From: a virus
IMG/VR virus record: IMGVR_UViG_3300025168_000538
Span: 1-27,067 of that record
Reading direction: 5' to 3' (one strand)
Length of the DNA: 27,067 nt
The notes beneath the pieces were generated by a model, which saw only the letters and a list, made by a program, of their open reading frames with translations, did not search any database and had not been told where the DNA came from. Made by a program: the position numbers and the translations under genes. Positions 3,320 to 5,740 of this stretch are shown one piece after another. Each line of letters begins with the position of its first letter. The stretch's first letter is position 1.

Positions 3320-3898
3320 ATGTCATACGTACTATTTGTATCAGAAAGTAAATTAAAAGACAGTACTGCCATCAACTTATCAGTTGATAATGAGATATTA
3401 TTGCCTTATTTACGCCAGAGTCAGAAGCTTTATGTGGAGACACATTTAGGAACACCATTAAATAATAAATTAAAAGACTTAATTATAGCAGGAACAGTAG
3501 GCTTACCTGCAAATGCAGCTTACAAGACTTTGCTAGATGATTACATAGGAGATATGTTACCAAATTGGGCTTTATACCATTGTATTCCTTTTCTTAGATT
3601 TAAGGTAGAAAATGGAAATATATATAGTAAAACTAGCGAAACTGGTAATAGTTTAACGACGGAGGAATCTCAACATCTTAGGGAAGAAATTAGAAATACA
3701 GCTGAATACTATACAGAAAGAATGATAGATTACCTCTGTAACAACAACACACTTTTTCCTGAATATGGAACATCGAGTGGCTCAGATGTGGATGCAAACA
3801 AAAATGCGTTCTATAACGGAATGAACCTTGAACGTCCTCAAGAACAAGGAACTAAAATTACTTTACAAAACTTTTTAAGCTCATCAGATTACTCATAA
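3320..3898 (+). CDS. Probable head-tail connector protein (DUF6712-like)
   Basis: This 192-residue protein begins LFVSESKLKDSTAINLSVDN and continues with ILPYLRQSQ and HLGTPLNNKLKDLI. It also has a mostly helical middle ending in YTERMIDYLC NNNTLFPEY. That layout matches small proteins placed directly after the portal in Bacteroidota phages (DUF6712-type) and the helical gp6/gp15 class of connectors that extend the portal ring. A 30-base gap separates it from the portal gene, and its stop overlaps the next start (TAATG). The ATG at 3320 is the only sensible start. Function is inferred from size, helical character and position next to the portal; the family name is from memory. Confidence 0.6.
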   Translation: MSYVLFVSESKLKDSTAINLSVDNEILLPYLRQSQKLYVETHLGTPLNNKLKDLIIAGTVGLPANAAYKTLLDDYIGDMLPNWALYHCIPFLRFKVENGNIYSKTSETGNSLTTEESQHLREEIRNTAEYYTERMIDYLCNNNTLFPEYGTSSGSDVDANKNAFYNGMNLERPQEQGTKITLQNFLSSSDYS

Positions 3899-4014
3899 TG
3901 AAGAAACACTACAAGCCAAAACAAATTAATATAACGAAGCTAAAATCCTACTTGGATAAAAAGCCTAAAAATAAAACAAATGCAAGACAGCCTTCAAGTA
4001 GGAATAGCAAATAG
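3898..4014 (+). CDS. Small basic protein, 38 aa
   Basis: A short open frame starts in the TAATG overlap with the connector gene and runs 38 codons to TAG. The product is very basic, beginning MKKHYKPKQINITKLKSYL and ending in KNKTNARQPSSRNSK, without membrane segment. Its last third overlaps the next small frame in another phase. The stop/start coupling is the main evidence that it is translated. It might bind nucleic acid or be a minor structural peptide, but nothing identifies it. Confidence 0.4.
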   Translation: MKKHYKPKQINITKLKSYLDKKPKNKTNARQPSSRNSK

Positions 4015-4135
4015 TACAGCAATAGGATTAAGTCTAGGACAGGCAAATGAACTCCTAACTTTTTGTTCCTTAATATTAGCCATTACTTTTACAATATATA
4101 AGTTTGCTAAATATGACAAAAAAAAAACTGATTAA
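3980..4135 (+). CDS. Small single-span membrane protein, possible holin or spanin-like, 51 aa
   Basis: The frame reads 51 codons from ATG to TAA. It has a polar N-terminus (MQDSLQVGIANSTAIG), then one clear membrane segment around residues 24-40 (LLTFCSLILAITFTIY), then a lysine-rich tail (KFAKYDKKKTD). This is the shape of a small phage lysis or membrane protein with its N-terminus outside and basic tail in the cytoplasm. It overlaps the 38-residue frame before it by 35 bases and the DUF5675 gene after it by 23 bases, so three frames are nested here. Together with the holin-like gene at 4534 it may form part of the lysis cassette. Translation is not proved. Confidence 0.5.
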   Translation: MQDSLQVGIANSTAIGLSLGQANELLTFCSLILAITFTIYKFAKYDKKKTD

Positions 4136-4532
4136 CTTATTACTCATAAGAGATACATTTTCTGAAAAATCTACTATAGGAGAACTTTTTCTAAACGGAG
4201 AAAGAATATGTGATACTCTTGAAAACCCTTGGTTAGATAATCAAAGAAATATAAGTTGTATTCCTGAAGGAGAATATAAAGTAAGACTAAGACTTCCAAG
4301 AGAATCAGCTACTAGACATTATATACACCTATTAGTAAAAGATGTTTCAAATAGAGATTACATACTATTTCACAGGGGCAATACAGCCCAAGATACTAGA
4401 GGATGTATATTGGTTGGTTTAAGCTCTGAACAAGACGTTGTTTATAACTCTACGTTGGCTATGGACTTATTAATCAAAGAATTAATACATTTGGGAGCAG
4501 TAAATATAAATTTAATAATTAAAAATAGATAA
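4113..4532 (+). CDS. DUF5675 family protein, probable cell wall-active lysis protein
   Basis: The frame opens at a TTG at 4104, but ATG at 4113 gives the natural N-terminus MTKKKLINLLLIRDTF and is preferred, giving 139 residues. The family signature is seen in STIGELFLNGERICDTLENPW, IPEGEYKVRL and, near residue 85, ILFHRGNTAQDTRGCILVG. The last motif (H, then G, then GC) resembles the His/Cys active site of L,D-transpeptidase-like folds. That resemblance is why I infer action on peptidoglycan, though the family is formally of unknown function. It sits between two small membrane proteins, as an endolysin does between holins. No signal peptide is evident, so export would depend on a holin. Confidence 0.7.
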   Translation: MTKKKLINLLLIRDTFSEKSTIGELFLNGERICDTLENPWLDNQRNISCIPEGEYKVRLRLPRESATRHYIHLLVKDVSNRDYILFHRGNTAQDTRGCILVGLSSEQDVVYNSTLAMDLLIKELIHLGAVNINLIIKNR

Positions 4533-4533
4533 A

Positions 4534-4728
4534 ATGAAAAAGTTTTTCCAAAAGTACCTAATCGGTCAGATGTTAAAATCAAAGAAGTTTTGGTACGCAA
4601 TCAGTTCTGTAGTAGTTCCTGCTATTGTAACTTACTTAGGAGTAGACCAATCTACTGCAACAGAATTATACCACGCAATCTTAGTTCTTATTGTTGGACA
4701 GGGAATAGCTGACGTTGCTAAGAAATAA
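4534..4728 (+). CDS. Holin-like small membrane protein, 64 aa
   Basis: The product has a basic N-terminus (MKKFFQKYLIGQMLKSKKFW). Two hydrophobic stretches follow: AISSVVVPAIVTYLG at about residues 23-37 and AILVLIVGQGIADVAKK at about 48-64, separated by DQSTATELYH. The size, two spans and charged N-terminus match class II holins, and the C-terminal VGQGIAD pattern is frequent in small holin-like proteins of phages. It begins one base after the stop of the DUF5675 gene and overlaps the following phosphoesterase frame by 14 bases. The role would be to permeabilise the inner membrane at lysis. No direct evidence separates it from another small membrane protein. Confidence 0.65.
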   Translation: MKKFFQKYLIGQMLKSKKFWYAISSVVVPAIVTYLGVDQSTATELYHAILVLIVGQGIADVAKK

Positions 4729-5437
4729 CAGATACAGATTAAAGCCACACGAAATAGTGGCATTAGAAAAAATGAGGGAAACCGAAGCTAGAAATGTTCT
4801 AGTTATCGGCGACCTTCACGAACCATTCTGTCTTGACAGCTATCTTGATTGGTGTATTGAGCAGTATGACACCTTTAATTGCACAGAAGTAGTCTTTATA
4901 GGCGACGTAATAGACAATCATTATAGTTCATACCACGAAACATCTGCTGATGGTATGGGTGGATTAGAGGAGCTAGAATTAGCCATTAAGCGTATTGCAC
5001 GTTGGCGAGATGCTTTTCCTGTAGCTACTGTACTTATAGGAAACCACGACAGACTTATAATGCGTAAGGCACAGACTTCTGCAATACCTTCTAAATGGAT
5101 TAAGTCTTATAAAGAAGTATTAGAAACTCCAGATTGGAACTTTGTAGAACGTTATGTATTAGACAATGTTCAATATTTACACGGAGAAGGGGGTACTGCA
5201 TCCAGTAAGTGTAGAGCAGATATGATGAATACAGTACAAGGACATTTACATACTCAATGTTATGTTCAAAATTTCGTAGGACAAAAATTCAGAATATTTG
5301 GCGTTCAGTCTGGATGTGGAATAGATCACGAAAGCTATGCTATGGCTTACGCTAAGTATGGTAAAAAACCAGCTGTAGGTTGCGTTGTTGTACTTAACAA
5401 TGGAAAAACTCCTATAAATTTATTAATGCCTTTATAA
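4715..5437 (+). CDS. Calcineurin-like metallophosphoesterase
   Basis: The 240-residue protein carries all metal-binding motifs of the calcineurin-like phosphoesterase superfamily in order: GDLHEP (residues 32-37), GDVIDN (about 63), GNHDR (about 109), HGEGG (about 155) and GHLHT (about 176). It should hydrolyse phosphoester bonds with two metal ions; the substrate is unknown. The start is uncertain. TTG at 4715 overlaps the holin-like gene by 14 bases and keeps the segment RYRLKPHEIVALEKMRE, which reads like real coding sequence. ATG at 4772 would give 221 residues and still keep every motif. The location at the end of the lysis cassette is odd for a nucleic-acid enzyme. Confidence 0.85.
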   Translation: MLRNNRYRLKPHEIVALEKMRETEARNVLVIGDLHEPFCLDSYLDWCIEQYDTFNCTEVVFIGDVIDNHYSSYHETSADGMGGLEELELAIKRIARWRDAFPVATVLIGNHDRLIMRKAQTSAIPSKWIKSYKEVLETPDWNFVERYVLDNVQYLHGEGGTASSKCRADMMNTVQGHLHTQCYVQNFVGQKFRIFGVQSGCGIDHESYAMAYAKYGKKPAVGCVVVLNNGKTPINLLMPL

Positions 5438-5632: not shown

Positions 5633-5740
5633 ATGAAAAATTTACTATCAACACTTTTAGGAATAGCAGGACTTTTTGGCTGCTTATATATACTACTAGG
5701 TACTATTACTTTAGTAGAACTATTTTTTAATTTAAGATAA
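5633..5740 (+). CDS. Small membrane protein, 35 aa, first gene of the early operon
   Basis: The frame has 35 codons from ATG to TAA. The product starts MKNLLSTLLGIAGLFGCLY and continues as an almost unbroken hydrophobic stretch to VELFFNLR, enough for one membrane span. It lies about 25 bases after the -7 element of the early promoter, after an A-rich leader, and its stop overlaps the next start (TAATG). Being the first product made after infection makes it a candidate membrane-acting early protein, for example in host takeover or superinfection exclusion. That role is a guess from position. Confidence 0.5.
   Translation: MKNLLSTLLGIAGLFGCLYILLGTITLVELFFNLR

Follow-up and report, generated by a model that had tools for sequence, protein, structure and literature searches.

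A DUF5675 protein with a predicted L,D-transpeptidase fold as the probable endolysin of a compact phage gene cassette

The described cell wall enzymes closest to the phage protein reported here are those of the YkuD, or L,D-transpeptidase, family (Pgp2, Csd6, LdtB, LdtMt2, and DpaA), which the DUF5675 protein resembles in predicted fold over nearly its whole length. L,D-Endopeptidase activity has been described for some members of that family in a review whose available part names no phage lysin of this kind (PMC12729407). Another close system is Tlde1a, presented in the accessible part of its description as a secreted, peptidoglycan-attacking effector with conserved residues R115, H121, S128, and C131, disulphides, and a capping subdomain (PMC9638812). 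YkuD domains are already known, albeit rarely, among phage lysins: as far as the text of these sources was available, there are 10 YkuD proteins among the phage lytic proteins of PhaLP (PMC8310338), one multi-domain YkuD protein named in a survey of gut endolysins (PMC13284279), and a YkuD entry in a table of a hot-spring virome (PMC5017753). Likewise, crAss-like relatives of DUF5675 (e.g., in cr85_1), homologous by tblastn and set in a similar neighborhood, already carry the name L,D-carboxypeptidase/transpeptidase as an annotation only. For crAss001, the accessible part of one paper places a holin and an endolysin among the late genes with the gene not specified (PMC8375218), and that of a second paper names neither (PMC6235969). 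Our queries on crAss-like lysis and on marine flavobacterial viromes matched nothing. In the literature searched, as far as its text was available, the name DUF5675 is merely listed with no function assigned, and Pfam and PHROGs both list the family as being of unknown function. What is new in our study is the link of this widespread family to a predicted transpeptidase fold and to a predicted endolysin role.

The window analyzed here is the whole viral record IMGVR_UViG_3300025168_000538, a linear stretch of 27,067 bases with a G+C content of 0.32. Its other phage genes recognized in Pfam scans include those for a terminase, a portal, an XkdF-like protease, NinG, and a Rad52-like protein, and its 5' end truncates the first tail gene. 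A DUF6712 gene precedes the cassette and a metallophosphoesterase gene, the product of which is not thought to take part in lysis, follows it; the layout is as follows:

3320..3898, + strand: DUF6712 protein, upstream neighbor (PF20459, E 1.9e-16)
3898..4014, + strand: 38-aa basic protein, first gene of the cassette (open reading frame [ORF] found in 78/78 near relatives, with third-position bias outside the overlap)
3980..4135, + strand: 51-aa membrane protein (one hydrophobic span, basic C-terminal end; a hydrophobic gene at this place in 78/78 near relatives)
4113..4532, + strand: DUF5675 protein, 139 aa from the ATG at 4113 (PF18925, E 1.8e-32; predicted fold, invariant residues, context elsewhere)
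4534..4728, + strand: 64-aa membrane protein (two hydrophobic stretches by eye, basic ends; 76/76 near relatives)
4715..5437, + strand: phage metallophosphoesterase, downstream neighbor (PHROG 221, E 1.8e-47; PF00149)

The four frames listed by the first-pass annotation (38-aa basic, 51-aa single-span, DUF5675, and 64-aa) are thus all present as stated. Its description of them as nested genes was mistaken, since the frames overlap end to start only: the stop of the DUF6712 gene and the 38-aa gene share 1 base, the 38-aa and 51-aa frames 35 bases, and the 51-aa frame and the DUF5675 gene (from the ATG at 4113) 23 bases. The DUF5675 gene could also start at a TTG at 4104, giving 142 aa. No clear Shine-Dalgarno sequence was seen before the cassette starts, and such a lack is usual in Bacteroidota. 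Relatives of the DUF5675 protein were found on eight bacterial or archaeal contigs, five of which belong to Bacteroidota organisms. The phage is a small tailed phage, the host of which, as we infer it, is probably among the Bacteroidota. One contig assigned to a Pseudooceanicola metagenome-assembled genome (L198; PAPR01000004.1) carries a DUF5675 gene at 77% together with both membrane genes and is probably a misbinned phage contig.

Chance ORFs were ruled out as an account of the small genes by their conservation in near relatives and by the codon positions at which these differ. The near-relative set comprises the best 80 of the 440 viral-contig stretches encoding DUF5675 relatives, at 75 to 99% identity. 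The 38-aa gene is present in 78/78 near loci having 400 or more upstream bases, a hydrophobic gene of 45 to 62 aa precedes DUF5675 in all 78 near loci with enough flank, and a hydrophobic gene of 55 to 71 aa follows it in 76/76 near loci having at least 230 bases downstream. The overlap of the 38-aa gene with the first hydrophobic gene exists in every counted locus and measures 35 to 89 bases. Mean pairwise differences at the first, second, and third codon positions are 0.079/0.083/0.236 in the 38-aa gene up to where the overlap begins (26 distinct sequences sharing the most frequent length, from 79 loci) and 0.116/0.083/0.310 for the 64-aa gene (39 distinct sequences, from 74 loci); the differences thus lie mostly at third positions, which argues for purifying selection on both proteins. 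Within 33 overlapping bases, the third-position bias is absent for the 38-aa frame (0.124/0.285/0.294). The 38-aa protein is strongly basic (pI 10.7, 13 K/R versus 1 D/E) and matched no family in Pfam, PHROG, and NCBIfam searches, NCBIfam yielding no hit above its cut-off.

The single-span protein at the 51-aa position exists as two sequence types, and parts of the cassette are exchanged independently between phages: in one contig (L038), the 64-aa protein is 100% identical to that of the window and the DUF5675 protein 79%, and in another (L014), the DUF5675 protein is 81% identical and the 64-aa protein 36%. The near relatives also hold 24 additional small ORFs lying between the single-span gene and DUF5675 (e.g., in L041, L053, and L066), mostly of two types, one with KRKLNS..NPKY and a YATYSI-like end and the other ending in Y-[KR]-GQGR.

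The 51-aa and 64-aa proteins are small, show a hydropathy maximum (the number of spans being read by eye), and flank the enzyme in 78/78 and 76/76 loci, respectively. Library matches to holins are marginal: the 51-aa protein reaches PHROG 920 "holin" at E 0.31 and the 64-aa protein PHROG 297 and 9987 "holin" at E 0.0014 and 0.0033, within a range of E 0.0014 to 0.23 for all PHROG holin matches, and the match of the 64-aa protein to Pfam Phage_holin_1 stays under the cut-off. From its basic C-terminal end, the 51-aa protein would be oriented N-out/C-in and could be a holin or a holin regulator, and the 64-aa protein may be class II holin-like. One of the two may, as suggested earlier, be a holin and the other an antiholin, given that DUF5675 has a conserved small membrane protein on either side, but nothing assigns these roles to them.

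The DUF5675 protein of the window scores 112 bits on PF18925, for which the cut-off is 26.7, and the same model is matched by 30/30 members of a varied alignment. With relatives in 440 viral-contig stretches and in 257 of 50,697 phage records, the enzyme is not rare. One copy is encoded in a complete gokushovirus record (L084:1663-1962; PV067912.1) where no gene is annotated. DUF5675-like domains also occur in very large viral proteins, namely BFVD A0A8S5VTR0 (868 aa) and A0A1L7N1E2 (a 1251-residue piece, from Ralstonia phage RP31), which are possible virion-associated lysins. In 3/80 near relatives (L060:1532-1954, L069:4377-4799, and L071:3370-3792), TGA replaces a conserved tryptophan codon of DUF5675 (ENPW) in an otherwise open gene, which is odd for an essential gene; it may be a nonsense variant, a readthrough site, or an effect of assembly. 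A changed genetic code was rejected, as the TGA is limited to DUF5675 and the other tblastn-matched genes of these three contigs have no in-frame stop.

Eight residues are invariant in the 30-member alignment (E37, P51, H87, N90, G97, C98, G102, and S113), R81 is kept in 29/30 members, and the motif R-x5-H-x-[GA]-N-x6-GC is found in 80/80 near relatives. The invariant H, N, G, and C fit the catalytic motif of L,D-transpeptidases, at the level of sequence comparison: as in E. coli LdtB (HGTN...SHGC), an asparagine stands three residues after the histidine and is followed by GC. In contrast to the YkuD family, the serine/threonine of [ST]-x-G-C is not always kept, the residue at this position being S/T in 17/30 members and L or I in 13/30, and GC is followed by I-x-x-G in DUF5675 versus an arginine in LdtB. 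The DUF5675 protein further differs from that family in being phage-encoded, about 140 aa long, without visible signal sequence, and without significant profile match. Tlde1a, a cysteine enzyme, shares the fold predicted for DUF5675 and an arginine six residues before the histidine, with a similarly short histidine-to-cysteine spacing of 10 compared to 11 in DUF5675 (C98 lying eleven after H87). The Tlde1 domain (PF10908) is weakly matched by 4/30 members (best E 0.0076) and not by the window protein, which matches DUF5675 only.

Structural modeling points in the same direction. The AlphaFold model of the window protein (30 sequences) reached a pLDDT of 92 and a pTM of 0.87, and realignment of Foldseek's 1000 best PDB chains, on which the fold assignment rests, gave 33 listed rows at Z 7.7 to 10.9, all of the L,D-transpeptidase fold, before the next row at Z 2.5. 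They include Pgp2 (Z 10.9, 116 aligned, 3.5 A), Csd6 (Z 9.8), and Tlde1a (Z 8.9, 111 aligned). We take Pgp2, Csd6, Bd1075, and DpaA to be L,D-transpeptidase-family enzymes, on which their structure titles are silent. A second model, of a distant member from a Cellulophaga phage, gave 46 rows at Z 6.3 to 12.1 with the next at Z 2.5; 45 of the 46 belong to the L,D-transpeptidase family, one is titled a fused amidase/peptidase (4xxt), and Pgp2 again matched (Z 12.1, 117 aligned, 2.5 A), the two models not being independent in sequence as the 15 sequences used for the second are all in the first alignment. Foldseek alone against the PDB returned nothing significant (best E 0.32 for the first model and 0.082 for the second, whose list is topped by Pgp2 at that E value). 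In a search against viral models, proteins named "Endolysin" (E 2.6e-3) and "Lysin" (E 0.019) rank after DUF5675 proteins.

Profile comparisons with the YkuD family gave no significant match. The 30 members match 12 Pfam families, and PF03734 is not one of these. With hhalign against E. coli LdtB/LdtC, neither the alignment behind the first model nor that behind the second was significant (probabilities of 0.6 and 0.5%, E 0.093 and 0.12); the first of these nonsignificant comparisons places H, N, G, and C on LdtB H194, N197, G209, and C210, and the second spans the GC end only. A relative of solved structure was also sought by sequence, where coagulation factor X led the list (best E 0.0038) and was taken as chance. 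Altogether, DUF5675 is predicted to adopt an L,D-transpeptidase (YkuD-like) fold.

The first-pass annotation had seen no standard endolysin, and this holds: Pfam scans found no canonical endolysin in the forward ORFs of the window taken as genes. The search for another endolysin gene, in the window and in relatives covering the missing contig end, gave a negative result. In three relatives (L184-L186), the last window gene is connected to the portal region via one to three or four ORFs of at least 90 aa, and the scanned ORFs of at least 90 aa contain no lysin domain; two of the three have a LamG tail gene within the gap region. An endolysin hidden in the missing end was thereby rejected. DUF5675 is, as judged from these scans, the sole recognizable cell wall enzyme of the window group, and a lysin family of unknown kind may exist. 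Moreover, GH24, Amidase_2, and M15_4 were each found in 0/37 records encoding DUF5675 (in 19/37 of which its presence was established by tblastn and not by the Pfam model), and these records, which include five of the window's group, other relatives, and fragments, show a tendency and do not amount to 37 independent cases. Four lysin families were searched, GH19 not being counted as it had no positive control. Mu, the 38th record, matched GH24 in the same search, and 4/7 control vibriophages without DUF5675 carry GH24, Amidase_2, or M15_4. In two viral contigs (L217 and L218), a gene sharing 88% identity with E. coli LdtB lies close to an end and is more likely host DNA than phage.

No spanin was recognized in the window. 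By eye, no clear spanin lipoprotein surrounds the cassette; a 35-aa hydrophobic ORF with LFGC lies at 5633-5740. In several members of the family, small genes beside DUF5675 encode products that carry an N-terminal span or begin like a lipoprotein, spanin-like by reading only, and such neighbors scanned in phi39:1, L170, L174, and L175 matched no spanin family.

The place of DUF5675 in other phages also points to lysis. Mu has the gene order late activator C, endolysin gp22, spanin gp23, gp24, DUF2730 (gp25), gp26, and terminase. In the Vibrio phages martha 12B12 and ZX4290, the late activator (followed in martha 12B12 by one additional gene) precedes DUF5675, two unknown genes, a DksA-like gene, DUF2730, one gene, and the small terminase, and no GH24 lysozyme was found in either. 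DUF5675 thus occupies the place of the Mu endolysin gp22 in two Mu-like vibriophages. Mu gp22 is a membrane-anchored GH24 lysozyme, whereas DUF5675 is a predicted cysteine peptidase; in the accessible part of one description, Mu gp25 (DUF2730) is the releasin required to release the gp22 endolysin (PMC9239132).

Holin genes adjoin DUF5675 in further phages. In Vibrio phage 1.122.A, DUF5675 and the gene of a GTA_holin_3TM holin (E 2.2e-8) make up a two-gene operon, with opposite-strand genes on both sides. A GTA_holin_3TM-like gene (E 2.4e-4, under the cut-off) lies directly downstream of DUF5675 in L181, and a Phage_holin_4_1 gene (E 6.8e-10) ends where DUF5675 starts in L172. In crAss-like phages, a "lysis regulatory protein/holin" is annotated directly upstream of the DUF5675 relative of cr85_1 and a "lysis regulatory protein" two genes upstream of that of cr111_1. 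DUF5675 is also present in microvirus genomes of 4.8 to 6.3 kb and in Cellulophaga phage Ingeline, the available description of which names a spanin and no endolysin (PMC8776804). Taken together, the replacement in the Mu slot, the holin neighbors, and the absence of other lysins of the families searched argue for a role in lysis.

Another use of the same fold would be wall modification, DUF5675 being a carboxypeptidase or transpeptidase that trims or exchanges stem peptides for remodeling or for blocking superinfection while an unrecognized protein lyses the cell. This seems unlikely to us, even though Pgp2 and Csd6, both cell-shape proteins, and transpeptidases are nearest in fold, and Tlde1a has carboxypeptidase and exchange activities according to the available part of its description (PMC9638812). 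The structural matches are mainly transpeptidases and carboxypeptidases, which alone do not solubilize the wall, and Tlde1a is an effector and not an endolysin; both points count against an endolysin. Against wall modification, DUF5675 fills the place of the endolysin in two Mu-like phages, lies next to holins, is encoded in genomes as small as those of the microviruses, and has no co-occurring lysin of the families searched.

Lysis by a single gene or by a holin only, with a small membrane or basic protein blocking wall synthesis or permeabilizing the cell and DUF5675 as an accessory, appears very improbable. Three very small conserved genes do surround DUF5675, and a single small protein lyses the host in some microviruses, but DUF5675 is kept where its neighbors are, by eye, unlike these small genes, and the small genes themselves vary in type. 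A virion-associated entry enzyme, as suggested by the occurrence of the domain in viral proteins whose models are 868 to 1251 residues long, is scarcely credible for the window protein, which is a free-standing domain beside membrane genes and outside any tail gene.

We propose a model in which DUF5675 is an L,D-peptidase endolysin working in a holin-endolysin cassette with small holin-like partners, a reading that we consider likely. The suggestion that DUF5675 may be the lytic enzyme is in this respect supported by the predicted fold, the invariance of H, N, G, and C, the position of the gene in other phages, and the lack of any other recognized endolysin. The protein would collect in the cytoplasm; as neither a signal sequence nor a membrane anchor is visible in it (by eye, the model opening with a strand), a holin would be needed, with the 51-aa and 64-aa proteins as candidates. 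One or both of these may thus act as the holin and let DUF5675 out to the wall. There, a putative cysteine-histidine active site set in the YkuD-like fold would most likely hydrolyze the L,D bond after diaminopimelate in stem peptides, breaking cross-links. The 38-aa basic protein is a conserved part of the cassette.

A wider proposal, towards which we lean on balance, is that DUF5675 forms a major unnamed endolysin class, a stand-alone cysteine L,D-endopeptidase made from the transpeptidase fold and used by single-stranded DNA microviruses, small flavophages, Mu-like and other vibriophages, and crAss-like phages, which would explain phages without a named endolysin (e.g., Ingeline).

The predicted active site lends itself to simple single-residue tests, and the three conserved genes of the cassette, at 38 to 64 codons, can escape standard gene callers. 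If our model is true, a common phage family without a function would gain one, and phages that seemingly lack an endolysin would be explained. A fold familiar above all from enzymes that build and trim the wall would be used for breaking it, with an L,D bond specificity found in few phage lysins, and the same DUF5675 gene would, as predicted, fill the place of the lysis enzyme in quite different phages.
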